The notes beneath the pieces are model-generated. The model had not been told where the DNA came from. It did not search any database and saw only the letters and a list, made by a program, of their open reading frames with translations. A stretch of DNA of 64,000 nt from Ypsolopha sequella (Eukaryota > Arthropoda > Insecta > Lepidoptera > Ypsolophidae): the NCBI GenBank assembly GCA_934047225.1, contig OW203992.1, positions 3,585,501-3,649,500 of the forward strand, in the 5' to 3' direction. Both the position numbers and the translations under genes were made by a program. Shown here in pieces: positions 595-50,975 of the stretch. Each line of letters opens with the position of its first letter. Within the stretch, counting starts at the first letter, position 1.

Positions 595-3500
595 AAACTT
601 CGAATTTGATCCCATGTCGTTTGAACACCCTCTGACAAGGCCTTTGTGATCTGTTTATAACTAGCGGGAAGACTGCGTTGTATTCGGGACTGTTCGTGTC
701 CTTTACTAGCGACGTTCTGTCGATTACTGGCGTCTCCTGGAATGAGGGATTTATTTCTTACAAAATAAAGTTTAAATTGTTTTGTGGTCTGTTCATTACA
801 CAGAACAAATAATAGGAATGGAAAGGCCATGAAAGCCGTGAATGCGACGCACCGATATAATCAATACGTCAAGACATAACCCGCGGGCCTCTCATTTCTC
901 AACCGAACGCGTTAGAACAAACATATTGTAAAAATGGTGTATTGCAGCGTGGCAAATTGTTCTAACTCTTCAAATAACACAAATAAGACATCCAAAGGAA
1001 TTTCATTTCACTCGTAAGTAATTTAAACATGTATTTACTGTGATATTTACAGAATAAACCTCGCGGTAAATAAAATTTCAACCTTACCATGAAATATTTA
1101 TCATTGTAGCGAGTAGCGTTGAAATTAGACAATATTTTGTCCATTGCAGGTTATAAAGAATGTCACACATTGAGTTAGAATATTAACGCCGCAATGTATA
1201 TTTTTTCAAACATTATCAACACGAACCCAATTGTGTCATAGTGCGGCCGCTATTCATGGCTCTTTACACACATTGGCACAGTGCCATGACGTGTTTGGTA
1301 TTTTACATCTAAGCTTCATAGAAATACGGTGTTATTTTGGCTGTATGAAGACGGGTGAATCTATGTGTGCGCCGCGTATGTTTACTATCTAGGTAATACT
1401 ACGTTATTCCAAAAAGTGGCGACAGAGGTTCTCGAATAAAATTTGTGTCACGCCATCCCCGTGGTTTATTATTAGTGGAAAGATGGCAGTTTAATCGGGA
1501 CTGTTCGTGTCCTTTACTAGCGATTACATCTTCTATAGATTACTGGCGTAAGAATGAATGGCAGATTAGGGGATAGGGTTTATTTTACATTGAAGAATAA
1601 GGTTTAATAATTTTCAAATGGTGAATTCTTGACCACAGTTTCGTTCCGAACTGTGCAGTTTCATTTGTATAAAAACGGTTTTACGCGGCGAGATAGATGG
1701 TTGCAGTCTTTTCGATTAATAAGTTACTGTGATAAATTTCGTGTATCAGATTCAGAAGTAATGCAATAACTATAGACCCCAGTTTTCAACTGAAAAATTC
1801 TATCTATCAAATCCCATACATATAGTGCACGAGAGAACTCCCGTCTCGACTCTATCTCCAGAATTACACCCCATAAATCAGACGATGTACTGGCAGCAAA
1901 GGAGATAAGTAACCAAGCCCAGCGCAAACACTTTGATCCTAAGACCCACAGGTGAGTGATTGATGATATAAAAAATACCTAATAAATAGTGCATGTGTGT
2001 ATGTAATGACCAAGTATTTCACATCTCATCTATCGCTCACCTGTGGGTCTTAGGATCAAAGTGTTTGCGCTGGGCCTGGTTACTTATCTCTAGACATCGG
2101 ATTATATGCACTAACAAAGTGCCAAAATATGCATGCAAATATGCACTAAAAAAGGCCGAAATATGCACTAAAAACTGTTGATATGCCCAAAATATGCGTA
2201 ATACAAAATCAAAACACCGTTATTAGTTTTATAGTGCGATCATTAGACAACGGATTATATGCACTAACAAAGTGCCAAAATATGATAAAAACTGTTTATA
2301 TGCCCAAAATATGCACAATGCAAAATCAAAACACCGTTATTATTTTTATACATTTTAATTAAAGACGGTACAATAACAGCGAAATATGCTTAAAGTTATG
2401 CATAGTTTTTGTGACAATATACAATTAAGTATTTTTCAAAAATTTCGAGCGCAATTTTGTAATGTTTGTCACCCAGTAGCAATTTGTACGCCGAAAACGA
2501 CGTCTCTACATCAACTGACGTCATTGTACAAAACGCACGCACTGGTCAGTCAGTTTGCGCTCGCGCCCTACACGTTTTCGTCACCTAGGTCCCTATACGT
2601 ACCTCCCGCTACTGAACGAAATATGCACTATTGGGAAAAAAGGCTAAAATATGCATTAACGCCGTAATTAGAGAGTTATATGCATTTGCTTATGCAAATA
2701 TGCAAATGCATAAAATCCGATGTCTACTTATCTCCTTTGCTGCCAGTACATCGTCTGATTTATGGGGTGTAATTCTGGAGATAGAGTCGAGACGGGAGTT
2801 CTCTCGTGCACGATATGTATGGGATTTGATAGATAGAATTTTTCAATCGAAAACTGGGGTCTATAGTTATTGCATTACTTCTGAATCTGATACACGAATC
2901 TGCGCTGGGCCTGGTCACTTATCTCCTTTGCTGTCGCTACTAAATTTAGAATTTTCCTAATCAATTTACGGGTTAAATAAGTCTTACCTGTGGGTAAGGA
3001 AACTCGAACTTGACGTATGTGTCAACTTCCTTCGGATTGGGCACGTTGTACGCTATCCCTCGAACTATTGTCAACTCTAAGTCGTTCTCGTTAAGGTCCG
3101 TATTGCACTGCACCACCGAGAACTGTCGAGATTCGTAGTGGAATTTGGGCGGGTCTTGTCCTAACCTAAAATTATAGTTATTTGTTTCAAAAATTGCATA
3201 CAGAATATTATATTAATGCTAGCTTTTGCCCGCGACTTAGTGTACAACGCTATATAGGTGTTCATCCCATGAACCAATTAACATTAGAAAAGTTATCGTA
3301 ATGTAGATTTAAGTAGCACCATAGTGGAGAGAGAAATAAGAAAGAAAGAAGAGCGAAAGAAGTGAACATATTTTTTCAAGTTTTCGAAAAATACTTTCCC
3401 TTTTTTAAAACCAGTACATTAAGCTACGCAATAGTGTGCTAAACCCAAATTCGTTCAGTTGAATCCACGTGAATTGTGAGCATATAGACGAAAATATATG

Positions 3501-6500
3501 TTGTAATTTTTTTTTTATTATTCTATGGGAGCCATAAGGAATCAACTTTTTTTTTCTCTTGTATTGACAAATTAAACTTGCGATTTTATTATACGTATTA
3601 ACGAAAGATTAGTCTGAAAAGATTTGAACTTACCCGCTTAAAAAGATAGGTAATTGTGTCGAATCAGTGTAACAAGTTTTAACTTATTTGACAGGAATAA
3701 ACTTAATTTAAGCGTTCTTTTTCTTTCTGTATCAAAAAGACAAAGACAGGACGCTAAAAATAAGGTTAGTCCTGTCAAATAAGTTAAGTCGTATTATTCC
3801 GAATTGACACAAGTGTAAAACTTACCTTTTAGCGACGACAATAAGGTCTAAATCTTGTTTTACGCTGACTGCTAAATGCTCGAATCTGTAAAATTAATAA
3901 TAATTTGAATTAGAGGAATTTGGGCTTACTCTATAGGTAGTAGGCATTTAGATGTTTTGATAATTTTAAATTTTACAAATTTTGACATAGTATATAAAAT
4001 GGGAACCAGTGTTTCATCGAGTTACAAAAAGAAAGAACATTATACCTATGTTGATAGGTAAGGTTTATTATGACACATTTCAAGTTGATAGCTTTATCCG
4101 GAGAGAAACGGCTGTGATAGACAGGTTCACAAGATACACATATAGCCCGGCGAATTCGTACGTAACACACCCATGGTCTGCGGGCGACGGGGGCGGTATG
4201 AAGTGCACAGGGGACGAGACCGTGGGAGCTCTACACGATGCCACGCCGAGATTTGTATGGAGACTCCTCCGAACTTCGCTTAGACAGCGTGTAAAGCACG
4301 CATCTGTGTGCGTGAATTTGAAACAGAGTTTGTCTAAGGTTCACTACACGATATATTTTTACTCTGGTGGGAGCGTTAGCCACGTCGCATCTGTGACTGG
4401 GCATCACCAAACACACACGGTATAGGAATTTGAAGATGAGTTAACCTATTGGAAAAGTTATTGGCCGTCAAGCCAAACAGATTACATACATCGGATTGAT
4501 AGACAGGACGGATTACAAAAATGGTAAAAAAGATCCGTCCAAAAGAATTCGATAACGAAAAGAAATCGTCAAAACGAATACTAAAACCACAGACCACTTA
4601 GCCATTAGACATCTTATCAACCACGTGACAAGAAGAGTTTTTTTCCGCCACTACGGGGTTGTTGCGGGGTAATGCGGGGAGGGTACTACGTAAGGAAATA
4701 GAGATGGGATAGTATCGAATGACATTTGTATAGTAGTGAAATTGCACTGATGTGTTAACGAAAAAGGTTTGCCTCCTTAAGACGTCTAACGGCCTAGTGG
4801 TATGATACAAAACGATATTCATTTAGCAACACCATGTGTAGCGGTTAATGATGCGCTGTTTTTCTCAGCACGCCCCCCGTCGCCCGCGGACCGTAGGAGT
4901 GTCACAAGTAGTCGCAACTTGCAAAACTTAATTTATTTGCTTGCTTAATTTATTTTCTGTAATTTAAACAATTATGTAAAAACTTGATCACATAATTAAG
5001 CTTCAAGCTTAATTGATGTTTTCTTTTATTTTAAGTAATTGGTTTAAGTTATAGTTTAATATTTCATGATTTAGTAGTAATTTATAAAATTTAGCATGTT
5101 TATATTTTTTTTAATTAAGTTTTTTCTTGTCTGTTAACATTGTAACATTATGCGAGGGCTGTGTGTTCCTATAATTTGTACAACTCTGCAGGACTAATGT
5201 ATAGTCAATAAGTAGATGTTTGTAATCAGAGTTTGCAGTTGGAGAAAACTACACCGAGAAAATATTCTGGTTCCGTTAACCTAAACAGAAAACACTGTAC
5301 TATATGTGACGTCTATATTTATTGTTCAGTTTACTTGTACAATCCAATGTATTTGACGGGTGGCGTCATCGTCCTGTCATAAACCGCACGTGCAACTGTT
5401 CGAGCGCATCGCGCCACCCCCCCCCACCTGTCGACTTTCTAGTTGACAGGCCGTCCTATAAAAAGGCGGCGCACCGGTTCGAATGATTGATTCCATAGAT
5501 AATACACCCAGAATAGATGCGCCACTCTCACTTCCATTGTGTATTGTTGTATAACCCTAAGTAATAGATGGCGTTATTTTAGTTCTTGAAAATGTCGCTA
5601 GATGTCACTTTTTATTAGTATAATTTTTCCAATGGATTTAAGTCTAAAAATAAATCATTTTATCCTTACATGAAAAATCTCACCGTATCGTAACATGACG
5701 AACCGAGAATTTCAATTAAGGATAAAAATGATTTATCTTTAAATGGATCCCCCACTTACATATTTTATATATTTGCAGTCCAAGTTTATGTTCCCTGTGT
5801 TATAGATGGCAGAAGTTGTCGTACATTTTTTATTTTCTAATGCTAACAGGTAAAATTCACCCCCCTGATTGATTCTAAGTCTGAGCGCGAACCGCTGCGC
5901 ATGCGGTATAGTTCCTGAGATACTCTCGTTACTGTAACTGAAGAATAAAGAGTTTCAACGTTACTTGCTGTCTTTTAATATGCCTGAGTCTCCTCCTACA
6001 TATACAATAATTCAAGTTAACATAACATAATTCTGTTTGTGTTAACCAGGTATTTTTTACAAAACTATCTGGTAGTATTGTTAAAATATTTTTTCTCCGT
6101 GTATGATGGTTCTGTTTTCACTTTTATTGCCAAGGAAAGGAACCCTAACAAAACGTACCTGTTGGTTTCAGCCACGTTCCCCATCGCCTTGTAATGGTCT
6201 CTATTCGCGAGACACAGCTTCAGTTGCGAGCTGAGTTGTTGATGCAGGCGCGACATTACATCCTCATCGTCCACACTTATTGGTACTGACTGTGACGAGT
6301 CCGGGGGGTCGCAATCTTCCGCGTTCACTATGTCGAATCTGCACAAATACTTTGGCGTTTTACAAAAGGTATATTTATCTAATACTTGGAGACCCCCTCG
6401 AATTACTTCGAAGCGAATTAAGCGATCTATAAAAAGTGGCAGCCAGCCGGTGGCAATTTGAAAAATAGGTTATTCGGAGCATTAAAGTTTATTATTAAAC

Positions 6501-9500
6501 CATACAAGGTGGTAGAGCTGATGCTGGGCTCGACAGTGGAGGTACCACCATCTTACTTGGAGACCCCCTCGAAGTAATTCGGGGGAGAGTAAGAGGAGAG
6601 CTCACAGACAAAAAACCAGGAGGCCCACCATGCCTGGGACCGATGGGTGGCGGTATATCCATCCCTAATATGGCACAAACTGGTGACGGGCAGCGGCGTC
6701 ACTGTGCAAAGGTTCCGGCACCGCGCTCACCAAGCCGCCTGCCCAGCGTGTGTGAGTATGGGAAATTCTTCCAGGATGACCGCCGGGAGTGGCAAAGTCC
6801 TGGAAAGGTTTATGTCCAGCAATGGACGAACTAGGCTGACGGATGGATGAATGATCTATAACTTAAGAGCTACGCTCTTGTCAGTGCAGTAACCGCCATT
6901 CTTCTCTATTTTCTGCTAATGATTTGATCTCTTGATATGGCGTAACATTAACTTTATCCTTCACTTGAGTAAAGTAAGTACGTCTAGATCTTCCTTTTTT
7001 CCCCTCGACCTTTCCTTCTCTGATATTTTTCAAGAAGCTGTCATGTCGAATCAAGTGTCCTATCATCTTTATCATAAAAGGTACAAAATCTAATTTCAGG
7101 TTTTATTTTTCCGCAGTATGCGTGAGCTAACTTCCCACCTTTGACGTTAAGGCGATATGTAAAAGTTTTAGCGTCCCAGTTACTCCATATGCGAAAAAAC
7201 CCTCTGTGCGAGAGGGACGGATTCGTGGAAAAGTAGCAAAAAATCTGTTTTTTATTCATATAAAATGTACTAAAGTTGCTATCCAAGGTCCTAGATATCG
7301 TTAAAACACATCTTATAAAATATAATTGCAGTCCATATGTCATTCTAAATTGTCAAACCAGGAGAATTGGTGTCGAAAAAGACCTAATTTCAATAAATAT
7401 TTCTATCGAGCCGAATTTCTCCAATTGCGTTTCTGTTTTAAAAGATCCCTAGAAAAAGATTCCAAAAATAATATACAATTTTATCAAAATAATATATTAT
7501 TTACCGAAGTAGATATGCATGTTCTTAAAGTGTCGATTTTTTTTCTGTAGCGCCTTAACGGAAATCACTCGCAAGCGTTACAAAACCAGATTTTTCTTTC
7601 TCATTCTAGTATATAGTTATGTCTCTTTCTTTAAAACGGGTGAAATTTCGCACGACGATCACACGTTTCGAAACGGATCCTAGTAGTGAAAGAAAAAACT
7701 GTAAGGTAACCAGCATGCCCTAAAAGCATGTTTTGTCTGTACTTACGTATGTTCAAGCTGTTGTTTCGCTTGTGGCGGCAGCGGTAAAGACTTCAGATCC
7801 ACGGCCAGTCCGCCGCTCGCCGCGTCTATCACTGAGTCGAAGCATGGTTTGTTTATACTTACGTATGTTCAAGCTGTTGTTTCGCTTGTGGCGGCAGCGG
7901 TAACGACTTCAGATCCAAGGCCAGTCCGCCGCTCGCCGCGTCTATCACTGAGTCGAAGCATGGTTTGTTTATACTTACGTATGTTCAAGCTGTTGTTTCG
8001 CTTGTGGCGGCAGCGGTAACGACTTCAGATCCAAGGCCAGTCCGCCGCTCGCCGCGTCTATCACTGAGTCGAAGCATGGTTTGTTTACACTTACGTATGT
8101 TCAAGCTGTTGTTTCGCTTGTGGCGGCAGCGGTAACGACTTCAGATCCACGGCCAGTCCGCCGCTCGCCGCGTCTATCACTGAGTCGAAGCATGGTTTGT
8201 TTATACTTACGTATGTTCAAGCTGTTGTTTCGCTTGTGGCGGCAGCGGTAACGACTTCAGATCCACGGCCAGTCCGCCGCTCGCCGCGTCTATCACTGAG
8301 TCGAAGCATGGTTTGTTTATACTTACGTATGTTCAAGCTGTTGTTTCGCTTGTGGCGGCAGCGGTAACGACTTCAGGTCCACGGCCAGTCCGCCGCTCGC
8401 CGCGTCTATCACTGAGTCGAAGCATGGTTTGTATATACTTACGTATGTTCAAGCTGTTGTTTCGCTTGTGGCGGCAGCGGTAACGACTTCAGATCCACAG
8501 CCAGTCCGCCGCTCGCCGCGTCTATCACTGAGTCGAAGCATGGTTTGTTTATACTTACGTATGTTCAAGCTGTTGTTTCGCTTGTGGCGGCAGCGGTAAC
8601 GACTTCAGATCCACGGCCAGTCCGCCGCTCGCCGCGTCTATCACTGAGTCGAAGCATGGTTTGTTTATACTTACGTATGTTCAAGCTGTTGTTTCGCTTG
8701 TGGCGGCAGCGGTAACGACTTCAGATCCACGGCCAGTCCGCCGCTCGCCGCGTCTATCACTGAGTCGAAGCATGGTTTGTATATACTTACGTATGTTCAA
8801 GCTGTTGTTTCGCTTGTGGCGGCAGCGGTAACGACTTCAGATCCACAGCCAGTCCGCCGCTCGCCGCGTCTATCACTGAGTCGAAGCATGGTTTGTTTAT
8901 ACTTACGTATGTTCAAGCTGTTGTTTCGCTTGTGGCGGCAGCGGTAACGACTTCAGATCCACGGCCAGTCCGCCGCTCGCCGCGTCTATCACTGAGTCGA
9001 AGCATGGTTTGTTTATACTTACGTATGTTCAAGCTGTTGTTTCGCTTGTGGCGGCAGCGGTAACGACTTCAGGTCCACGGCCAGTCCGCCGCTCGCCGCG
9101 TCTATCACTGAGTCGAAGCATGGTTTGTTTATACTTACGTATGTTCAAGCTGTTGTTTCGCTTGTGGCGGCAGCGGTAACGACTTCAGATCCAAGGCCAG
9201 TCCGCCGCTCGCCGCGTCTATCACTGAGTCGAAGCATGGTTTGTTTACACTTACGTATGTTCAAGCTGTTGTTTCGCTTGTGGCGGCAGCGGTAACGACT
9301 TCAGATCCACGGCCAGTCCGCCGCTCGCCGCGTCTATCACTGAGTCGAAGCATGGTTTGTTTATACTTACGTATGTTCAAGCTGTTGTTTCGCTTGTGGC
9401 GGCAGCGGTAACGACTTCAGATCCACGGCCAGTCCGCCGCTCGCCGCGTCTATCACTGAGTCGAAGCATGGTTTGTTTATACTTACGTATGTTCAAGCTG

Positions 9501-12500
9501 TTGTTTCGCTTGTGGCGGCAGCGGTAACGACTTCAGGTCCACGGCCAGTCCGCCGCTCGCCGCGTCTATCACTGAGTCGAAGCATGGTTTGTATATACTT
9601 ACGTATGTTCAAGCTGTTGTTTCGCTTGTGGCGGCAGCGGTAACGACTTCAGATCCACAGCCAGTCCGCCGCTCGCCGCGTCTATCACTGAGTCGAAGCA
9701 TGGTTTGTTTATACTTACGTATGTTCAAGCTGTTGTTTCGCTTGTGGCGGCAGCGGTAACGACTTCAGATCCACGGCCAGTCCGCCGCTCGCCGCGTCTA
9801 TCACTGAGTCGAAGCATGGTTTGTTTATACTTACGTATGTTCAAGCTGTTGTTTCGCTTGTGGCGGCAGCGGTAACGACTTCAGATCCACGGCCAGTCCG
9901 CCGCTCGCCGCGTCTATCACTGAGTCGAAGCATGGTTTGTATATACTTACGTATGTTCAAGCTGTTGTTTCGCTTGTGGCGGCAGCGGTAACGACTTCAG
10001 ATCCACAGCCAGTCCGCCGCTCGCCGCGTCTATCACTGAGTCGAAGCATGGTTTGTTTATACTTACGTATGTTCAAGCTGTTGTTTCGCTTGTGGCGGCA
10101 GCGGTAACGACTTCAGATCCACGGCCAGTCCGCCGCTCGCCGCGTCTATCACTGAGTCGAAGCATGGTTTGTTTATACTTACGTATGTTCAAGCTGTTGT
10201 TTCGCTTGTGGCGGCAGCGGTAACGACTTCAGATCCACGGCCAGTCCGCCGCTCGCCGCGTCTATCACTGAGTCGAAGCCTTTCGCAGCGCGGAGGTACT
10301 CCTTGGCTTGGGCTATGTTGCCTGAAATATATTTTATTATTTATTAATATTATTATTTATTCTTAATGCACACAGAAAACATTATTTTAAATAACATGAT
10401 AAAAGTTATGCACAATGGCGTGCTTATGTCAATTATGAGATTTCAACTATGACTATACTAATCTTCAGTTTTTTTTGTAATGTGACCGCTTATTTACAAT
10501 AAATTACCGTGATTGTAATAATAACTGTCTCATCTAGTAAATTGTAAAAACCAATTTAAACAATAATATTATGTGACTTCTAATAGATTTTCTGGTTTAA
10601 ATTTTTTATTTCAATTTGATTCGTATAATGTGAATATTTACTTATGTTTTGTACATATACCTGGCGATGTAGTTTTTCAAGATAAAAGAATATTAATAGC
10701 CAATTTAGGACCTGCATAAGGTTAAATTAAACAGATAAATTTAGTTACGGAAAAATACGCGAACACGCAGATCAAAGAACTAAAATGAAATGAAAAAGCG
10801 AAGAATAATAATAGTTTATGCTACAAGGGCGAAAAGGAAAAAAAACTACGAGGACGATTTAAAACACGAGCGAAGCGAGTAACCGAGTAATTTATTGCTC
10901 TTACGCCCGTGTTTCATACTATGTTATTCAATGCATAGTGTGAGGAAATAAAACAAATATAATCTTGTGAACTTTAAATTATGATTGGCTCAAAAGGACT
11001 GTATCCAAATTCCAATTCAAATTCAAATAGTTTATTTTGCAAAGCAGGTATAGATATATACACAAAGCCGTTAAACAGTGAAAGAAAAAAGTATAACAGT
11101 TATGGTACACAGGAAAGGTTGCAGGTTAGGCAACTTCTCGTAAATAAAATTTAAAAAAAAAGCCCTAGGGCAAAATAATCGACTTTCTGTTCGGTTTTGA
11201 TGCATAAAAAGTGGGCTCGTAAAGAGTACAATTTAAGCTAAACGAAAGTACCAAATTATATTTCAACAACATACCTTCCTTTTTAGCCCTCAACGCGGCT
11301 TCTTTAAACTCCTTCTGCCGTTGCATTAAGAACGCTAATTGCTTGTCGGCTCTCGTCGCCTGCGTGCCGGCGGCGGGAGGGCGCGGGGCGGGGCCCTTAG
11401 CTGCGGGGCTGGGGGCGGCAGGGGCGGGGCGAGGCGCAGGGGGCGCAGGACGAGGTGCGGGGGACGACGCAGTCTGGAGAAAGATTTTGGCGATGTAAAA
11501 ATATATTCAGTACTTTTTGATGATTGACAGATTAGCGGTAAACATTGAGCAACTTCAAGTTTCAAGTAAAGACAGTTTACCACGACGAGAAGTGTCAAAG
11601 ACTCCCGAAAATTTAAGGGTGCACGGGAAGAGCCTCTCGGAGTGGCGTCAACTGAAATACAACCACTCTGATTGCTCCTGGCGCAAACTGGCCAATATCT
11701 AACTCACAAACCCTTTCACTGTAACTGATAGTAGACCTGTCACCTTTTCCTACTGTCACCCCCTCATGACGAAACAACGACGCCAATCAACTTCCGTAGA
11801 TTTTTGCGGAAGTCCCTGGAAAGACAGACTAACGCCTCGCCTGCTGTCACTCTCCCAGTTTCTGGGCGAGCGCCCTTCATCTTAGGTCTTATCGACGATT
11901 AGCGTCAAGGGGGGTAATAGGCAACCGTGAGCCCATTGAACGTTTACAAAATACTTTTTGGCAACATATTGAATTTTCTTCAAATTCTCTATAGAAAACG
12001 GCAGTTTCATATGTAAAGACATAATAAAACAGACTGTGACGGGCAGCGGCGTTACTGAAGGTTCCGACACAGCGCTCACCAACCTGCCTGCCCAGTGTGT
12101 GTCAGTATGGGCAATTCTTGCAGGAGGACCGCCAACAGTGGCAAAATCTCGGAAAGAGCTATGTCCAGCAGTGGACAAACCAGGCTGATGGATGGATGGA
12201 TACTCACATTATCGGAGGTAGGTATAGCCGCGAACCCCGGCGGTGTGGGCAGCTCGTCCGTCGGTATCGGTTTGCCGGCCGCGTGCAGTTTGATTGCGTC
12301 CTGGTACTGTTTCACTATGCGACCCATGCGCCGCTGTTTGGACGCGTTCCCTTGTTCTTTGGCTTTTGCTTCTTGTTCCTGGAAGAATCAAGGTGCTTGG
12401 ATTTTATTTTTATTTTTATCTTTTTATTCAATTTAAGTATAGGCTTACTTTTTACTTTTAGTTGTTGTAGTAAAGACATGACCTTGCTAAGTTTCTTGCC

Positions 12501-15500: not shown

Positions 15501-18500
15501 TACAGTGCTCCCAAAGTGATAATGCGCATACAAATCTTCGCCACTGTTCGGCAAAGTTCGTATTTCCTTACAATTTCTACGAGTATACAATCAATAGTGT
15601 CACGTGGTACTTCCGGTCGCTCGGCTATAGATTTGTATGCATTGTGAGTACTGTACATAAGAATAAATAAAACTATATATATAAATAGCAGTCTCTACAA
15701 CAAATAAAACCAAATATATAAATGGCAGTCTCTAGAACAAATAAAACCAAATATATAAATGGCAGTCTCTACAACAAATAAAACCAAATATATAAATGGC
15801 AGTCTCTACAACAAATAAAACCAAATATATAAATAGCAGTCTCTACAACAAATAAAACCAAATATATAAATAGCAGTCTCTACAACAAATAAAACCAAAT
15901 AATAAAAATGGCAGTCTCTACAACAAATAAAACCAAATATATAAATAGCAGTCTCTACAACAAACAAAACCAAATATATAAATGGCAGTCTCTACAACAA
16001 ATAAAACCGAATAAATAAATGGCAGTATCTACAACAAATAAAATCAAATATATAAATGGCAGTCTCTACAACAAATAAAACCAAATATATAAATGGCAGT
16101 CTCTACAACAAATAAAACCAAATATATAAATGGCAGTCTCTACAACAAATAAAACCAAATATATAAATGGCAGTCTCTACAACAAATAAAACCAAATATA
16201 TAAATGGCAGTATCTACAACAAATAAAACCAAATATATAAATGGCAGTCTCTACAACAAATAAAACCAAATATATAAATGGCAGTCTCTACAACAAATAA
16301 AACCAAATATATAAATGGCAGTCTCTACAACAAATAAAACCAAATATATAAATGGCAGTCTCTACAACAAATAAAACCCAATATATAAATGGCAGTCTCT
16401 ACAACAAATAAAACCAAATATATAAATGGCAGTCTCTACAACAAATAAAACCAAATATACAAATGGCAGTATCTACAACAAATAAAATCAAATATATAAA
16501 TGGCAGTCTCTACAACAAATAAAACCAAATATATAAATCGCAGTCTCTACAACAAATAAAACCAAATATATAAATGGCAGTCTCTACAACAAATAAAACC
16601 AAATATATATAAATGGCAGTCTCTACAACAAATAAAATCAAATATATAAATGGCAGTCTCTACAACAAACAAAACCAAATATATAAATGGCAGTCTCTAC
16701 AACAAATAAAACCAAATATATAAATGGCAGTCTCTACAACAAATAAAACCAAATATATAAATGGCAGTCTCTACAACAAATAAAACCAAATATATAAATG
16801 GCAGTATCTACAACAAATAAAACCAAATATATAAATGGCAGTCTCTACAACAAATAAAACCAAATATATAAATGGCAGTCTCTACAACAAATAAAACCAA
16901 ATATATAAATGGCAGTCTCTACAACAAATAAAACCAAATATATAAATAGCAGTCTCTACAACAAATAAAACCCAATATATAAATGGCAGTCTCTACAACA
17001 AATAAAACCAAATATATAAATGGCAGTCTCTACAACAAATAAAACCGAATAAATAAATGGCAGTATCTACAACAAATAAAACCAAATATATAAATGGCAG
17101 TCTCTACAACAAATAAAACCAAATATATAAATCGCAGTCTCTACAACAAATAAAACCAAATATATAAATGGCAGTCTCTACAACAAATAAAACCAAATAT
17201 ATAAATGGCAGTCTCTACAACAAATAAAACCCAATATATAAATGGCAGTCTCTACAACAAATAAAACCAAATATATAAATGGCAGTCTCTACAACAAATA
17301 AAACCAAATATACAAATGGCAGTATCTACAACAAATAAAATCAAATATATAAATGGCAGTCTCTACAACAAATAAAACCAAATATATAAATCGCAGTCTC
17401 TACAACAAATAAAACCAAATATATAAATGGCAGTCTCTACAACAAATAAAACCAAATATATATAAATGGCAGTCTCTACAACAAATAAAATCAAATATAT
17501 AAATGGCAGTCTCTACAACAAACAAAACCAAATATATAAATGGCAGTCTCTACAACAAATAAAACCAAATATATAAATCGCAGTCTCTACAACAAATAAA
17601 ACCAAATATATAAATGGCAGTCTCTACAACAAATAAAACCAAATATATATAAATGGCAGTCTCTACAACAAATAAAATCAAATATATAAATGGCAGTCTC
17701 TACAACAAACAAAACCAAATATATAAATGGCAGTCTCTACAACAAATAAAACCAAATATATAAATGGCAGTCTCTACAACAAATAAAACCAAATATATAA
17801 ATGGCAGTCTCTACAACAAATAAAACCAAATATATAAATGGCAGTATCTACAACAAATAAAACCAAATATATAAATGGCAGTCTCTACAACAAATAAAAC
17901 CAAATATATAAATGGCAGTCTCTACAACAAATAAAACCAAATATATAAATGGCAGTCTCTACAACAAATAAAACCAAATATATAAATGGCAGTCTCTACA
18001 ACAAATAAAACCCAATATATAAATGGCAGTCTCTACAACAAATAAAACCAAATATATAAATGGCAGTCTCTACAACAAATAAAACCAAATATACAAATGG
18101 CAGTATCTACAACAAATAAAATCAAATATATAAATGGCAGTCTCTACAACAAATAAAACCAAATATATAAATCGCAGTCTCTACAACAAATAAAACCAAA
18201 TATATAAATGGCAGTCTCTACAACAAATAAAACCAAATATATATAAATGGCAGTCTCTACAACAAATAAAATCAAATATATAAATGGCAGTCTCTACAAC
18301 AAACAAAACCAAATATATAAATGGCAGTCTCTACAACAAATAAAACCAAATATATAAATGGCAGTCTCTACAACAAATAAAACCAAATATATAAATGGCA
18401 GTCTCTACAACAAATAAAACCAAATATATAAATGGCAGTCTCTACAACAAACAAAACCAAATATATAAATGGCAGTCTCTACAACAAATAAAACCAAATA

Positions 18501-21500
18501 TATAAATGGCAGTCTCTACAACAAATAAAACCAAATATATAAATGGCAGTCTCTACAACAAATAAAACCAAATATATAAATGGCAGTCTCTACAACAAAT
18601 AAAAGCAAATATATAAATGGCAGTCTCTACAACAAATAAAATCAAACCACGGATTATAGAAAATCAAACCAACTTACTCAAAATAAACTGCATTCCTTTC
18701 ATCTTCTCAGGATCTAATTCCTCGCTAACCACCGCCGGCGCTTCGGGCTCGCTCGGTGACACTTCGGGTGCACTCGGTGCCTCTTCGCGAGGACTCGGCG
18801 TTTGCTCAGGCGCGCTCGGTATTACTTCGGGAAGTTGTGGTGGAGGGAAAGAGGGGGGTTCGGAAGTCGGCGCGGGGGATTCACCGGGCTTTTTGCCGGT
18901 ACTGACTGGCGGAGGAATATCTTCGTCGTTGATTGGTTTGCCGGCTTTCGCTTGTTTGAGGAGATCGTTGAGCGTTTTTAGGCCACGGTTGAATCTGTTG
19001 AACGTGAATTCGTCTTTGCAACCAAAGCTTAGTTTATGTTATGACTAAGGCTAACATATCAGTTAGTCAATAGAGAAGGCTTCTACCGACCTAGAGTTAC
19101 ACAAAAATCTAATCCACAAAGACCAATCAAAAAGCAAGTACCTACATACTCCATATTACTCAGCGATAAAAGAATTAAGCCTTTTAAAAGTCACAATTTG
19201 TATACTTCCCATTTACTGAACAGTGAAGAAAAGAATGAGGATGACCTGCCTGCATGCTATAAAAAACGTGTATAAGTGCTTATCAAGTTAGAATGTTGAA
19301 ATCGTCGGTGAAAAAAGGATTTATATTTTTGATGTCCTCTAAGATATACAGATTGCAAACTTAATTATGTACTTCAATGGAGGGGGTCACTCTTTACCAT
19401 AAGGGAAAACATACTGGGCAAAAAAAACATATTTATGCCAATTTATTTTTTACATATATTAGTCATTAAACTACAACAAAACTAATAATTTTATAGTAGT
19501 TTATGCTACTTGGGCGAAAAGGAATAAATTACGAGGACGATTTAAAACACGAGCGTAGCGAGTGTTTTAAACGTAACTGAGTAATTTATTGCTTTTGCGC
19601 CCGTGTATCATACTACGTTTTTCAATGCATAGTGTGAGGAAATAAAACAAATATAATCTTGTGAACTTTAAATTATGATTGGCTCAAAAGGACTGTATCC
19701 AGAGCCGTTAAACAGTGGAAAAAAAGTATAACATTTATGGATTTTATGATATACACAGGAAAGGCTGCAGGTTAGCCAATAAATTAAAAAAAGAATAATA
19801 ATAAAGCCCTTGGGCAAAATAATCGACTTTCTGTTCGGTTTTGATGGATAAAAAGTGGGCTTTTACAGAAAGAAAGAAAGAAAGAAAATGAAATTTATTC
19901 GTCACCAATAAAATACGGAAATACATAAAAATAACATAAAAACTAAACTTACAAGAAAACAATTATATAATATACTACAAAATGTGACGAAAAGGGGCAG
20001 GCTCAGCATCTGCTGTGAGCTATCGAGCAGCAACACAGCGCTGGTTTTCAGCCTGTCCCTGTACACGCACTAAACATAAACATAAAACATTTTTTTTTTG
20101 CAGGCAGCTTGTACATCATCATTAATAAATAAATATAAATCTAAAAATACAATTGAAAATTAATTAATGAATTATAACGACACTGAAGGTATTTTATTAA
20201 GCGGCTACTATACTAAATGAGATTTTGTAAATCAAAGAAAATTTTCTTTACGTGTAATTTAAAATTCTTAGTTTTCATCTCCTCATGCAATGGTGGAGGT
20301 AGATCGTTCCAGATCTTGGACGCCGCATATTTAAAACAACCTTTATAGCCTTTGGTTCTGTGTCTAGGTATAATAATTTTACTTGTTTCCCTACTTCGAG
20401 TATAAACTTGTGTATGACAATCTCTCTTCCAAATAAATTTCGAATAAAGGTACGTCGGTCTCTTACTATGTATAACACGATGCACTAAACAAGCCAGGTG
20501 TAATTTCCTGCAGGCTGACATCTTTAAAATCCCTTTTTGGTTTAAAAAGGGTGTCACATGACCTCGCTTCGGAATAACAAAACAAAATCGTGCACATGCG
20601 TTTTGTACACGCTGGATTGCGCGCTCAGTTTTAGCGAACAATCTCGGCCCATAGACTACATCACAGAAATTGAAGAGTGACAAAACCAGAGACTCTGTTA
20701 TCAAAATGCGAACTTTCTCCGTTAAAAATTCTCTGATTTGGTATAAAACTTTGAGCCTAAAGAAAGCGTTTCTTATTTTGCTGTTAATATGCTCAATATA
20801 GCGAAGTTCACCGTCTAAAATTAAACCTAAATTACGCGCTTTTAAAACTCTATCTACATCATAATTACCTATTTCAATGTGAGGTTTCATTTCTGCAATT
20901 GACTCACATTGGTGACGCGTCCCTAAAATCATAAACTTCGATTTGTTCGGGTTTAAGACCAAATTATTTGTTTGAGCCCACACAGAAATTGCTTCCAGAT
21001 CCTTATTAATTTTCTCGACCGCTTCAACTGTATCCTTAGCTCTAAACGAAGAATACACGAGCGTAATATTACGAGCACTTGCATTGAAAAAGATTTTAAA
21101 AATCTTACAAGCCTCTGATCAGCTGCTATCGAGGTTTGTACGTTATATCCATCCATCAGCCTAGTTCATCCACTGCTGGACATAAGCCTTTCCAGGACTT
21201 TGCCACTCCCGGCGGTCATTGCCCATACTCACACACGCTGGGCAGGCGGGTTGGTAAGCGCGGTGCCAGAACCCTCGCACCAGTGACGCCGCTGCCCGTC
21301 AGCAGTCCGTTCCATATAAGGCCCGGCTATTAGGGATGGATATACTGCCATTCATCGGTCCCAGGCATGGTGGGCCTTCTGGTTTTTTGCCTGTTAGCTG
21401 TCCTCTTACTCTTACTAATTACTTCGAGGGGGTCTCCAAATAAGATGGTGGTACCTCCACAGTTGAGCCCAGCATCAGCTCTACCACCTGTAAAAACCAC

Positions 21501-24076
21501 CACCTGTGTACATTATAATATAATAGTTTTTGAAACCCACCTCCGAGCCCGACTACTTTCTCCATTAGTTTTAGCGTTGCTTTCAGCCAACATGTAGTTG
21601 CTGATCCTCTCTTGCAACAAGCTGACGGTACTGTTGGCAGCACTGGGGGGTGCCGGGGCGGAGCGGCGGGGAGGTGCCGCGGGGGGTGCATCTCTGTCCT
21701 CTGTCAACTCGTTTAACTCGCTCAGAAGATCAGGGTCATCTTCGTCACCTGTAATGGATGTCATATTGATATTAAATCAAATAAGGACTAGAATAAATAA
21801 TTAAGTATACCTGTACAGGAATACAACTTAATTGAGAGCCGGGACGAAGACGGTTTGCGGGGGGAGAAGTACAGATGAGTACAAAAGTGTTAATTTGACC
21901 AGTAAGATTATGGGATTTATATCCTGTTGCAGTTATTTGACAAGGTTGACGTACGTTACATTAATTAATTAATTGTTCATCGTTTTACTGATTTAAATCT
22001 GAATCTAATCAGATTTTACAGATTTATTTCCTTCCGGAACATAATGTTGGATTCTCATAATGTTGAATTCTCAAAATGTTGGATTCCCAAAATGTTGAAT
22101 CTCAAAATGTTGAATTCTGAAAATGTTGAACAGTAAATCTTGAAATGTTGAATGTATAGTGTTCAGTGTATGTACTATAAATATATAAAAACACAAAAGC
22201 AAGTTCACTTTTGTCGTAAACTGTACCAAAAACCATTCGATTTCAGTTAGATTTGTTGTTGAACTTGTCACAATTAGGTTGAAAATGGAGAGGGTTACAC
22301 GTGCCATGCGTCCATAGAGTAAGTATGGCAGAAGTTACTTATTGGAATGCATTGTTTGTCGACTCGTCGATCAACAAGTTGATATATGGACATCATTATC
22401 GACTTTCACCTTTCTTTGCTCTCTCCCAGCACCTTATACTTACCTTACCTTATACTTATATATCTTTATACCTACTGATAATAAAGTAGTAAAAAGGTTA
22501 TGTCTGTACATTGAATTGTTTTGCAAAATTTTGGATGAAATCGGTTATTGTATTAGCATTGTACTGAGGCCAAAAACTTAATGTTTACAAATTTTTGCCT
22601 GTCTGTATAAATGTTCTGTTTTAACTCAAGAAACGGATTTAGCCGATGTTATCTTTTTTATCATCGACCCTGGTCAACAAATAGGCTATAAGGGGTGTTG
22701 ATAAAATAACCGCCAAGCTGAAAAAGGAGGCAGCTCATAGACGTAATGAGAAACAAACCTAAAATTTAACTATTTTGTGTATACTGTTGACCCAAAACCT
22801 AATATCGAATTAGAAATTCAATTAAATTATTTCTCAGGGGGACTGTTTTTACTTGATATAATTTAAAACAGAATTAATAATATTCAATATTAAATAATAG
22901 TGGCTAACAGTAGCAAGAAAAGACTTAAATAAGTTCCTTGTCTTGTATTTTCTTATCCCTTGGTTAAAGTAGGTTAAAGTCATATATTGTATAGTATAAG
23001 TTTTATGTTGGAAAAAAAAAAGACATGATCTTGCTAAGTTTCTTGCCCTTCTTCTTAGCAAGACTAATTGAATGGGCGGAGGTAGGCATGTATTTATATA
23101 TGTAACCTATTAGTATGTAGTATATAGGATGGGATTTGGTCGGCCGCCTGGATTCGTGCTGGGGGCTCGGTTGGTGATCATTGAACCTTGTTCCTGGTCC
23201 CTGGCCGGGTCTCCAGTGTGGGTTCGGGCGGCTGATTGGATTTTACCTTGTATAATATATATTTTACCTACCATTATAATCGTAAATATATTGCTACATA
23301 AATTAAATAAACCTTTAATTTAGTTCATGTACATTTATTATTTTATTACATATATTTTCTTTATTAGATTAAATTTGACGTGTAAAAAGTGTATATCTCT
23401 ATACCTGCTTTGCAAAATAAACTATTTGAATTTGAATTGAATTTGAATTAGGTAGGTCATACTGAAATTACCAGATCCAACTTCATCATCAGAAGGTATA
23501 TCCTTTAAGCTCTCAGCTATCATAGCATCTAAGTTGGGTGCTGATGGGGCAGTCTTCTTCGGACGAGTGCGTCGGCCACCACTTGCGCTGATGGCTGCCA
23601 ACTCAGCCTCCAGGTCTAAATCATCATCAGACACATCCATGGCATCATCATCGTCCAGTGTATCAGGAATATCGAGCAAGCCAAACTGAAGACAAATAAC
23701 AAAGAAATATAATGTAGCAATATGGAAAGACAATAGTAATTTTGATGAATGTCCAGTTAACAAGATGCTCAACAAATCAATAATAAGTATAAGCGACACG
23801 GAGGTTATCGTACGGCCCTTTTCCTTTGTTTACAAAACCATGAACAATCAGCTGATAAGGTTTTGTAGCAGCTAAGAAAGCCCATCTTCCAATCTAAAAC
23901 AGCATGAAAATGTTTTTGCCATACCTATACAGTAACTCAAAATACGCAATAACTCAAAAGTAATGACAAAATTGGTAGGACCAGCGAAGCGATATGTAGC
24001 GATTACAAATTTATAAATTCTGACTCACCTGTGAAAGACTTGTCTTTTTCGATGAAGGAGTCTGTTTCCGGAACAT
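595..24076 (-). CDS. lgd: lethal (2) giant discs / CC2D1 homologue, 13 exons, 3' end off the window
   Basis: Exons in order: 24029-24076, 23472-23685, 21541-21748, 18678-19027, 15083-15307, 14356-14450, 12208-12378, 11275-11473, 10183-10321, 6159-6338, 3826-3885, 2988-3165, 595-736. All have GT/AG borders and compatible phases, giving 736 codons plus one base. The start encodes MFRKQTPSSKK. An acidic stretch rich in DDDD follows (about residues 27-45). Four DM14-type segments lie near residues 162-190, 274-330, 390-430 and 480-540 (for example RQKEFKEAALRAKKEGN in the fourth). The C2 domain opens around residue 636 and includes VKDTNSPEYN and CQRVFKRHGIKFEVY. In the known family DM14 domains bind the ESCRT-III subunit Shrub/CHMP4 and the C2 domain binds phospholipid, which controls endosomal sorting of Notch. 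Exon 13 ends in phase 1, so the C2 domain continues past base 1. The exon model is manual; family identity is very secure. Confidence 0.93.
934..1013 (+). CDS. Isolated THAP-type zinc finger first exon
   Basis: ATG opens MVYCSVANC, then SNSSNNTNKTSKGISFH, followed by a good donor (TC|GTAAGT). The start MVYC-x4-C and the terminal FH match the first half of a THAP C2CH finger, a DNA-binding domain shared by host factors and P-element-type transposases. It lies in lgd intron 12 on the opposite strand. No second exon carrying the remaining Cys and His was found within the next kilobase, so it may be a transposase remnant or the first exon of a gene whose other exons are absent. Confidence 0.45.
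1496..1549 (-). pseudogene. Degraded partial duplicate of lgd exon 13
   Basis: GGGACTGTTCGTGTCCTTTA and the flanking bases match 687-712 inside lgd exon 13 exactly. The match then continues with substitutions through GATTACTGGCG and on into the intron upstream of the exon (to about 1610). Changes inside the copy break the reading frame and the exon's C-terminal half is missing. It lies 810 bp upstream of the real exon. Confidence 0.8.
1724..2920. repeat. Large inverted repeat, right arm split by a DNA transposon
   Basis: The sequence 1724-1954 recurs in reverse complement as 2037-2090 joined to 2735-2905. The roughly 230-bp arms are nearly identical and separated by about 82 bp. Both arms contain an open stretch reading LISFAASTSSDLWGV, but the conservation is explained by DNA identity. 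This looks like a foldback element or inverted duplication. Confidence 0.88.
2091..2726. mobile_element. Non-autonomous hAT-like element, 636 bp
   Basis: Its ends are TAGACATCGGATTATATGCA and the inverse of TAGACATCGGATTTTATGCA. It is flanked by the 8-bp duplication CTTATCTC (2083-2090 and 2727-2734). The interior is AT-rich and repeats ATATGCAC-type motifs, including two related blocks beginning GGATTATATGCACTAACAAA near 2099 and 2251. No transposase frame is present. The intact left arm of the surrounding inverted repeat shows the empty site. Confidence 0.9.
3655..3811. mobile_element. Palindromic MITE, family with ends TGTGTCGA
   Basis: About 157 bp, self-complementary almost throughout. 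It shares arms and centre (CTTTCTGTATC, GACAAAGACA) with copies at 31549-31697 and 57702-57860. It begins 14 bases into lgd intron 11. Confidence 0.85.
3886..6158. other. lgd intron 10, mostly unassigned
   Basis: No conserved protein is visible on either strand. A short hairpin with arms ATAAATCATTTTATCCTTA lies at about 5637-5745. At 5340-5990 an LTR- or promoter-like tract contains CTATAAAAAGG near 5456 and GAATAAAG near 5942. The open frame at 4009-4425 has no recognisable domain. Confidence 0.5.
5340..5990 (+). repeat. Possible solo LTR or promoter-bearing repeat
   Basis: A CpG-rich block with CACGTG, a TATA-like CTATAAAAAGG, then GAATAAAG and a TTGCTGTC-type tail resembles LTR layout. 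No matched partner, target duplication or internal retroviral sequence is visible, so boundaries are uncertain. Confidence 0.25.
6511..6850 (+). repeat. Dispersed LINE/SINE-like repeat with GGAT tail, copy A
   Basis: Starts GGTAGAGCTGATGCTGGGCT, contains GGAGACCCCCTCGAAGTAATTC, and ends in GGATGGATGA. Shared with 21147-21489 (reverse), 42631-42987 and part of 12032-12200. Apparent short frames within it are coincidental or remnants of a LINE 3' region. Confidence 0.85.
6881..7075 (-). pseudogene. LINE reverse transcriptase C-terminal remnant
   Basis: A 64-codon frame containing MIGHLIRHDSFLKNIREGKV, a GRSRRTY motif and LAENREEWRLLH. This layout (GH..RH.., RGRPR-like, DR..W) is typical of the tail after the reverse transcriptase domain in insect LINEs. 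No polymerase domain is present. Confidence 0.7.
7081..7740. other. lgd intron 9 below the array, no gene seen
   Basis: AT-rich intron DNA between the LINE remnant and the tandem array. Short frames on both strands have no recognisable motif. Confidence 0.5.
7741..10279 (-). repeat. Tandem array of exon 9 tail plus 5' splice site, 22 copies at 116 bp
   Basis: The splice donor ACTTACGT (plus strand) recurs at 7741 + 116n for n = 0 to 21, with no length change. Each unit, read in lgd sense, holds the last 97 bases of exon 9 (from GCTTCGAC to CATAC), the donor GTAAGT and 13 more intron bases ending CCAT. Only the highest-coordinate copy is joined to the rest of exon 9 (10280-10321). Units differ by a few diagnostic bases (for example GTATATAC, ATCCACAG, GGTCCACGG, ATCCAAGG). 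The lowest-coordinate unit leads into unrelated intron. Confidence 0.98.
10811..11225. repeat. Four-copy dispersed repeat, copy 1
   Basis: Begins TAGTTTATGCTAC, contains CTTACGCCCGTGT and AATCTTGTGAACTTTAAATTA, and ends AAAAGTGGGCTCGTAAAG. Other copies are near 19496, 35300 and 39016. It has no coding potential. In this copy a piece resembling a LINE tail (AATTCAAATAGTTTATTTTG) is fused in. Confidence 0.8.
12032..12200 (+). repeat. Dispersed repeat with GGAT tail, partial copy B
   Basis: Starts at GACTGTGACGGGCAGCGGCG and ends GATGGATGGATGGA. The tail comes to within about seven bases of the lgd exon 7 donor (exon ends at 12208). Confidence 0.85.
12931..13196. mobile_element. MITE with TACAAGGTGA ends
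   Basis: TACAAGGTGAATTTGTGAAC opens it and an inverse ending GTCACCTTGTA closes it, with TA on both sides. Inner arms (AAATTCATACT, GAAATTTCGACC) pair over more than 100 bases. Related right ends occur near 33914, 23250 and 57447. Confidence 0.82.
13590..13798 (+). repeat. LINE 3' end with TTTC tail
   Basis: Contains GTAGCTGAAAACCAGCACC and finishes with CTTTCTTTCTTTC. The same kind of tail ends the LINEs at 19867 and 62836, which are on the other strand. Confidence 0.6.
14544..14924. mobile_element. Non-autonomous hAT-like element, 381 bp
   Basis: Begins CAGGGCCGGATTTA and ends TATAATGCGGCTCTG (imperfect inverse). It is flanked by a perfect 8-bp duplication CATCTAGC (14536-14543 and 14925-14932). 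Both ends carry GGGGCCTCCAC in inverse or direct form. It fills most of the 632-base lgd intron 5. Confidence 0.88.
15662..18650. repeat. 37-bp minisatellite in lgd intron 4, about 80 copies
   Basis: The unit on the plus strand is ATATAAATGGCAG, then TCTCTACAACAAATAAAACCAAAT. Most units are 37 bp; a few gain AT and become 39 bp. Recurrent variants (CGCAG for GGCAG, CAGTATC for CAGTCTC, CAAACAAAA, ATACAAATGG) recur in the same order about 0.8 kb apart, near 16458, 17311 and 18092. This shows block duplications of about 21-23 units. In lgd sense each unit contains a pyrimidine-rich TTTTATTTGTTGTAG. Confidence 0.97.
19867..21068 (-). mobile_element. 5'-truncated LINE, TTTC-tailed
   Basis: Inserted in the dispersed repeat with the short duplication TTAC on both sides. 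Its 3' end on the minus strand is a (TTTC)n tract. It carries 281 codons of reverse transcriptase C-terminus and a 3' untranslated segment of about 330 bases. The 5' truncation falls just after the polymerase catalytic motif region. Confidence 0.88.
20213..21058 (-). pseudogene. LINE reverse transcriptase, C-terminal part
   Basis: The frame contains NPNKSKFMILGTR, NLGLILDGELRYIEHINSKI and RVQNACARFCF, then SKIWNDLPPPL near its end. These are standard landmarks of the thumb and tail of Jockey/CR1-group reverse transcriptases. The polymerase YxDD motif and the endonuclease are missing because of 5' truncation, so it cannot be functional alone. The surviving frame has no internal stop. Confidence 0.88.
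21147..21489 (-). repeat. Dispersed repeat with GGAT tail, copy C
   Basis: Reverse orientation relative to copies A and D: starts ATCCATCCATCAGCC and ends ATCAGCTCTACCACC. Lies about 50 bases into lgd intron 3. Confidence 0.88.
22960..23450 (+). repeat. Cluster of LINE 3' ends
   Basis: GACATGATCTTGCTAAGTTT through GGTAGGCATGTATTTATA repeats the sequence at 12475-12545. Next comes a fragment ending TTTTACCTTGTATAAT, then a tail GCAAAATAAACTATTTGAATT that also occurs at about 31955-31980 and, inverted, near 11020. All lie in lgd intron 2. Confidence 0.65.
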
Positions 24077-50800: not shown

Positions 50801-50975
50801 GAAGAATTCACCGGTCTGGGTAGGAACCTCGGTGGCGCAATTGGTAGTGCACTTGTCTTGATAACAAGAGGTCGCAGGTTCGAATCCTGGCCCGGGGAAT
50901 TTTTTCATATTCTTGTCTTTGGGTTTGTTTTCTGATTGATATTTTCTAGTTTGTATTGCACTCTAATAACATTTA
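50801..50975 (+). repeat. tRNA-derived SINE, copy 2
   Basis: Matches 36703-36868 from GAATTCACCGGTCTGGG through the A and B boxes to GCACTCTAATAA, with changes in the D arm (TAGTGCACTTG). A third, heavily decayed copy is recognisable at about 53950-54070 (GGAGGTTCAAATCC). Confidence 0.75.

Follow-up and report, generated by a model that had tools for sequence, protein, structure and literature searches.

Introduction

Earlier work on duplicated splice sites reportedly set identical 5' splice sites (donors) in competition with each other. The same was done with engineered minigenes: in the available part of that report, five minigenes carrying two identical strong donors and recognized by exon definition used the upstream donor exclusively (PMC9225289). 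In the accessible portions of two further reports, intron gain by tandem duplication over an intron-exon boundary is described for potato RdRp (PMC4974935), and intron gain by tandem duplication for Drosophila cases (PMC2891723). Here, we describe an array in the lgd (CC2D1) gene of the moth Ypsolopha sequella, in which the tail of coding exon 9 and its donor are present 22 times in tandem. The array lies in a stretch of 64,000 nucleotides (assembly GCA_934047225.1, contig OW203992.1, positions 3,585,501 to 3,649,500 of the forward strand), termed the window. All coordinates are window positions; lgd and the array are read on the minus strand. The structure is real and unusual, and its most likely cause is ordinary: an intronic minisatellite that was seeded by an exon and is tolerated under the upstream-donor rule.

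A previous sequence-only reading of the window had noticed the array and knew of no description of exon-derived donor arrays. A literature search at title and abstract level, which covered few subscription papers and is weak evidence of novelty, found neither minisatellites over exon-intron boundaries nor exon-derived donor arrays nor similar partial exon duplications. To this extent the statement held for arrays; single boundary-crossing duplications, by contrast, are known, as the part of the potato report at hand indicates (PMC4974935).

Structure of the array

Cutting the minus strand into 116-bp units yields 22 head-to-tail units between 7728 and 10279 with no indel. Tandem Repeats Finder (TRF) reports a period of 116, 22.0 copies, 98% match and 0% indels at 7724-10279. 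Each unit comprises the last 97 nt of lgd exon 9 and 19 nt of intron, i.e. the donor GTAAGT plus 13 further intron bases. In the unit of the coding copy, the intron part reads GTAAGTATAAACAAACCAT and directly follows the 97 nt exon tail. Unit length, copy number and composition are as the sequence-only reading had given them. It had also located the array at 7741..10321; the array is there, but its limits are different, since the array proper spans 7728-10279 and 10280-10321 is the unrepeated head of exon 9. The array is too regular for chance. With 22.0 copies of 116 bp arranged head-to-tail it has the build of a minisatellite, although the unit is slightly longer than the 10-100 bp of classical minisatellites. 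The main features are:

10183..10321, minus strand: lgd exon 9, 139 nt, the sole copy with an acceptor (ATTTCAG) and the full coding head; supported by a phase-consistent gene model and by colinearity with PDB chain 6ei6 over the exon 9/10 junction
7728..10279, minus strand: array of 22 units (97 nt exon tail + 19 nt intron each); TRF and unit cutting
10164..10279, minus strand: unit 1, the coding copy, type A; unit cutting
10177..10182, minus strand: native donor GTAAGT (donor 1); 21 more GTAAGT follow at 116-bp steps down to 7741-7746
10179..10181, minus strand: in-frame TAA met when donor 1 is skipped; read directly, frame from the gene model
9120..10163, minus strand: units 2-10, types ABAABCADE, first copy of a nine-unit block; unit cutting
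7960..9003, minus strand: units 12-20, types ABAABCADE, the nine-unit block for the second time, without a difference over its 1044 bp; unit cutting
7728..7843, minus strand: unit 22, distal and most diverged, with 4 differences, of which 3 fall within the 19 nt of intron; the native intron follows on from its tail; unit cutting
10276..10279, minus strand: GCTT in exon 9, the exonic end point of the original duplication; read directly
7724..7727, minus strand: GCTT in the native intron past the distal unit, the other end of the duplication (4-bp microhomology); read directly
6339..10182, minus strand: intron 9, 3844 nt, of which the array occupies 2455 nt; gene model
6159..6338, minus strand: lgd exon 10, whose acceptor faces all 22 donors; gene model

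Six unit types can be distinguished. Their order outward from the coding copy is AABAABCADECABAABCADEEF, where type A equals the coding copy and accounts for nine of the 22 units, the coding copy included. The donor hexamer GTAAGT is unchanged in 22 of 22 units. Donor positions -3 to +8 are the same in 19 units and differ at +7 in two and at +8 in one. Only unit 1 is joined to the exon 9 acceptor, which lies within none of the 22 units; the earlier observation that a single copy is attached to the complete exon is thus borne out. Units 2-22 lack the exon 9 head and the acceptor, the unit length of 116 is not divisible by 3, and the native frame hits a TAA in each of them. This means, copies 2-22 are not full exons with acceptor, donor and open frame of the kind found among mutually exclusive exons. 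When a 460-bp array probe was used in one DNA search of the 866.8-Mb assembly, whose counts are lower bounds, nine matches were obtained, all within the array; no second array was found elsewhere.

The gene: lgd/CC2D1

The gene model has twelve exons between 585 and 23685, which splice signals and matching phases join into a single open reading frame of 712 codons. Coding starts in a further exon at 24029-24076 (MFRKQTPSSKKTSLSQ), which contributes 16 residues and makes the array exon number 9, in agreement with the previous numbering. The 712-residue product contains DM14 (PF21528 CC2D1A-B_DM14, E 1.3e-58, 3 passing stretches). For these 712 residues no C2 Pfam model was reported, DM14 being the only one; the gene is cut off by the end of the window. 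PDB chain 6ei6, a 'Coiled-coil and C2 domain-containing protein 1-like' entry that we take to be fly Lgd, aligns to residues 507-712 (E 1.2e-62). By these matches, the array gene is identified as lgd/CC2D1. The alignment runs unbroken over the exon 9/10 junction (LEHT/F versus LEASF), so that normal Lgd is the product of donor 1 spliced to 6338. Skipping of donor 1 carries the frame on into ACG TAA, and the protein ends at residue 539 (16 + 522 complete residues + T). The earlier claim of an in-frame TAA ahead of the C2 region upon use of a later donor therefore stands, but not its estimate of an end near residue 551.

Donor choice and the predicted splicing outcome

The predicted U1 pairing amounts to -7.6 kcal/mol for 21 donors and -7.1 kcal/mol for the distal one, inside the range of lgd's own donors (-5.1 to -11.1 kcal/mol). 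Together with the invariant hexamer, this confirms that the spliceosome would meet 22 near-identical donors. Exon 9 measures 139 nt with donor 1 and 255 nt with donor 2, and its flanking introns are 953 and 3844 nt long. Human data on donors of near-equal strength indicate a preference for the upstream donor in exons between long introns, and with weakened donors, larger exons were mostly skipped, both according to the part of the report at hand (PMC9225289). By the equal-strength rule, donor 1 (139 nt exon) would beat donor 2 (255 nt) and all later donors. The proposal that the array serves as a splice-donor reservoir finds no support here: U1 pairing is equal, the introns are long, and the minigenes of the available text used the upstream donor only (PMC9225289).

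With any later donor, the TAA lies 113 to 2433 nt ahead of the next junction. A stop that far upstream of a junction is the usual setting for nonsense-mediated mRNA decay (NMD). Since the distance is at least 113 nt, mRNAs made with later donors would likely be NMD substrates and not a source of an isoform. New introns with a donor and an acceptor of their own are not evident in the array. AGs inside the unit have a pyrimidine content of 0.35-0.65, overlapping the 0.41-0.82 of lgd's own acceptors when scored by that property alone, and weak unit-internal acceptors may exist; the AG nearest to the donor of its own unit is 31 nt away. Most likely, as this analysis suggests, the array leaves with the intron and is near-silent in splicing.

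Origin and growth of the array

Past the distal unit the native intron reads CAT-GCTT-TTAGGG, whereas the internal unit joins read CAT-GCTT-CGACTC. Because every unit contains intron bases, the sequence was copied as DNA and not as a retrocopy. In a first step, as read from the sequence, a tandem duplication over the exon 9/intron 9 boundary would have occurred between two GCTT tetranucleotides separated by 116 bp; it took in the end of the exon, the donor and the next 13 bases of the intron. With 97 nt of exon, 19 nt of intron and GCTT at both ends, it is a boundary-crossing duplication of the type invoked for intron gain. In a second step, likewise read from the sequence, the array would have grown by unequal exchange of several units at a time. 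Since the type order of units 2-10 recurs in units 12-20, nine or more units must have moved in at least one exchange; a nine-unit variant block repeated in order is what unequal exchange in a minisatellite leaves behind.

In a third step, the duplication would have been tolerated because the coding copy retains both acceptor and donor. The acceptor would be paired across the exon with the nearest donor, donor 1, and the other 21 donors would leave with the intron, while occasional use of a later donor would yield an mRNA with an early stop. The array could be tolerated because equal donors and long introns let the upstream donor tend to win. According to the fourth and weaker step, the ends of coding exons in moths would repeatedly turn into intronic satellite material, and the lgd array would be one example. 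Taken as a whole, this four-step reading, an exon-seeded intronic minisatellite ignored by splicing, appears probable. The four functions or fates that had been proposed for the array include a kinetic brake on splicing; of the four, the neutral minisatellite is best supported.

Repeated exon pieces in lgd models of other Lepidoptera

The lgd relatives analysed were 162 distinct proteins (the best 120 of 567 plus the best 120 of 254 hits). Repeated exon pieces occur in 4 of the 55 named Lepidoptera lgd models compared to 2 of 107 others (named non-Lepidoptera and unnamed). In the Ostrinia nubilalis model (1187 residues), the repeated parts are the tails of exons 3, 5 and 8 (five copies), the exon 10 tail with exon 11, and almost the whole of exon 7. 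In the Cydia amplana model (1124 residues), they are the exon 3, 5 and 7 tails and the greater part of exon 13, and in the Bicyclus anynana model the exon 10 tail with exon 11. The exon ends of these 10 repeat places were mapped on an unexpanded relative, the end of exon 13 lying beyond that map. Nine of the 10 reach to at most 4 residues from the 3' end of the exon; in the tenth, exon 13 of C. amplana, the match reaches the exon end in the alignment. The overlong O. nubilalis and C. amplana proteins may be artefacts of gene prediction that derive from genuine exon-tail copies. Caution is due with predicted genes, as such copies may end up joined into proteins that are too long, here of 1124 and 1187 residues. 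In an lgd tree, in which O. furnacalis and other Cydia stand in for O. nubilalis and C. amplana, Bicyclus, Choristoneura and the relatives of Ostrinia and Cydia fall into separate clades, apart from the window lgd. The latter is drawn beside Plutella with support 92/55, which is not firm.

Exon-copy relics elsewhere in the genome

Using protein kinase domain (Pkinase) matches as a sample, 80 loci with flanks were examined out of 139 listed matches. For the first 40, of which 30 were the best, mostly long matches, both flanks were searched with only the match as query (word 11, E 1e-3); for the next 40 it was mainly the downstream flank, with the match plus 90 bases on each side (word 9, E 1e-2). 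A comparison of donor side and acceptor side is uneven, since flanks and stringency differed between the sets. Two of the 80 loci hold their own exon sequence just past the donor. These two and a copy within lgd are:

G000:C7, L034 1837-2081: relic at kinase locus L034, 82 nt, 87% identity, shift 163 bp
G000:C11:20667000-20668999: relic at kinase locus L061, 34 nt, 85% identity, shift 149 bp
1464..1549 of the window, minus strand: decayed copy of part of the lgd exon 13 head (exon 585-736), located upstream in intron 12, 78-80% over 86-87 columns

The L034 and L061 relics look decayed, and their position suggests a donor-spanning duplication. The copy of the exon 13 head means that acceptor-side copies exist, too. 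Together with the lgd models, these cases hint that exon tails might be a repeated seed of satellites in moths.

Eight further loci were dropped from the kinase count. At L058 the copy is 1.5 kb away and matches an apparent interspersed repeat, at L076 the repeated part is intronic and not the exon match, and L017, L021, L063, L066, L081 and L083 contain tandem repeats that do not overlap the exon match. The repeat at L081 (1-612) is an array with period 117 and 5.2 copies about 1 kb downstream of the kinase exon, which does not match it.

Evidence weighing against this interpretation

Several points speak against an array that is ignored by splicing, purely neutral and one of a recurring kind. 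The upstream-donor rule is drawn from human data and transfected cells, and the use of donor 1 in moth lgd is a prediction. When donor strengths are not equalised, the downstream donor is the commoner one (~60%), for long-intron exons as well, in the part of the report available (PMC9225289). Independent substitutions are found at 5 of 19 intron positions versus 4 of 97 exon positions (Fisher P 0.006). Of the four exon changes, three are synonymous, where 25.6% would be expected (P 0.054), or 36.8% if only transitions are counted. The distal unit has one synonymous change in 97 exon bases versus three changes in 19 intron bases (P 0.014). This pattern is a hint of selection filtering the exon parts, for which a purely neutral array has no need. 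Conversion with the coding copy, or a former stay of the exon parts in the coding copy, could also fit, and the numbers are small. No significant polarity of divergence was detected along the array (Spearman P 0.17 for 22 units and 0.42 for 21 units). The invariance of GTAAGT over 22 copies is uninformative as a sign of selection because only about nine independent changes fell on 116 positions.

As to recurrence, the evidence from other moths consists of gene models. The repeats of Choristoneura fumiferana exon 5, two segments, are weak, one C. amplana exon 3 copy ends 8 residues before the exon end, and the lgd model of the sister species O. furnacalis is without repeats. Predictors make exons solely from donor-bearing copies, so that copies of exon heads would be missed. 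The control gene Dlic showed no internal repeats among the best 120 of 1421 hits; these include 14 named Lepidoptera, too few for lgd to be called special. Finally, neither kinase relic shows a second donor, and the L034 copy ends before the donor.

Alternative explanations

The copy number could act as a rheostat: a fixed share of transcripts would use later donors and enter NMD, and the length of the array would determine how much full-length Lgd is made. In its favour, the size of tandem arrays often differs among individuals, a single acceptor is faced by 22 equal donors, and with every later donor the TAA precedes the next junction by 113 to 2433 nt. However, the donor 2 exon already measures 255 nt, and identical strong downstream donors went unused in the exon-definition minigenes of the partly available report (PMC9225289). 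This makes the rheostat unlikely. Similarly doubtful is a combination in which exon ends are a regular seed of satellites in Lepidoptera, donor-spanning duplications being splice-silent, and the lgd array in addition is a length-variable NMD rheostat operating via donor number.

An assembly artefact with a small true copy number is improbable. A perfectly repeated block of 1044 bp is beyond short-read resolution, but six unit types stand in an ordered pattern, the distal unit is diverged and the window contains no N. Furthermore, an 867-Mb assembly in 151 pieces suggests long reads, which would span 2.55 kb.

A regulated isoform without the C2 region would need later donors to yield a stable protein of 539 residues. 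The TAA follows donor 1 immediately, and the truncated protein would retain the N-terminal part with the DM14 stretches. The stop, however, is located far upstream of the next junction, and none of the 162 lgd relatives ends at the end of exon 9 in a simple pattern test (the best 120 of 567 plus the best 120 of 254 hits; candidates of 0.55-1.75x query length). In addition, one extra copy would be enough and 22 are not needed. The idea that the array is a source of such an isoform thus meets the same evidence on donor choice as the donor reservoir, plus a stop at least 113 nt ahead of the junction that likely leads to NMD, and is improbable.

Just as improbable is a U1 sponge or shield, whose intronic donors would bind U1 to suppress premature polyadenylation or hold the transcript on chromatin: 22 GTAAGT sites within ~2.4 kb, three AATAAA/ATTAAA motifs downstream of the array in the same intron and the silencing of proximal poly(A) signals by U1, reported in the accessible part of PMC6946686, would suit it, but no sign of constraint is seen, the hexamer invariance being uninformative with so few changes.

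Other features of the window

A second minisatellite of lgd is located at 15665-18646 in intron 4 and starts ~30 nt after the exon 4 donor. It comprises ~80 copies of a 37-bp unit, whose usual form on the coding strand, TTTGGTTTTATTTGTTGTAG followed by AG, resembles a 3' splice site. Intron 4 would thus contain acceptor-like motifs in tandem, just as 22 donors are arrayed in intron 9.

Between 24890 and 28939 on the plus strand an uninterrupted frame of 1349 codons is found, presumably a copia-type retrotransposon polyprotein. The neighbour of lgd is Dlic (dynein light intermediate chain), whose exons at 30685-45674 on the plus strand were identified via relatives. A frame at 63309-63998 on the minus strand runs off the window and, as we assume, resembles a piggyBac-type transposase. 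Two tRNA matches (Rfam) at 36726-36798 and 50826-50898 on the plus strand are overlapped by similar reading frames and may belong to a repeated element.

Comparison with known systems

The locus is a natural experiment in which 22 near-identical donors compete for one acceptor, and RNA-seq could reveal the rules by which a donor is chosen. The locus also points to a simple route from a coding exon to an intronic satellite: the working exon stays intact when a duplication spans the donor, and such a duplication can therefore be kept and expand. The repeats in moth lgd models and the two kinase relics suggest that this route was used more than once.

With the intron gains in potato RdRp and Drosophila, as far as the available parts of those reports go, the lgd array shares an exonic or boundary-crossing tandem duplication, the reuse of splice signals and a copy that becomes part intronic. 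There, a new intron is supplied with both ends, whereas lgd has 22 copies, only the donors are multiplied and an old intron grows. As in tandem exon duplication and mutually exclusive exons, coding exon sequence was duplicated locally within one gene. In this genome, a myosin exon is matched four times in a row, which we take to be the known case of mutually exclusive exons in muscle myosin. Mutually exclusive exons are whole exons with both splice sites, whereas all lgd copies but one lack an acceptor and contain a stop. The engineered minigenes, in the portion of the report at hand, likewise let identical donors compete for one acceptor (PMC9225289); they have two by design, while lgd has 22, which are natural and located in an insect gene. 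With minisatellites and variable number tandem repeats (VNTRs) shaped by multi-unit exchange, the array has in common head-to-tail units, variant repeats and a duplicated multi-unit block. It differs from the usual minisatellite in that every unit carries part of a coding exon together with an intact donor, and in that unit 1 still belongs to a working exon.

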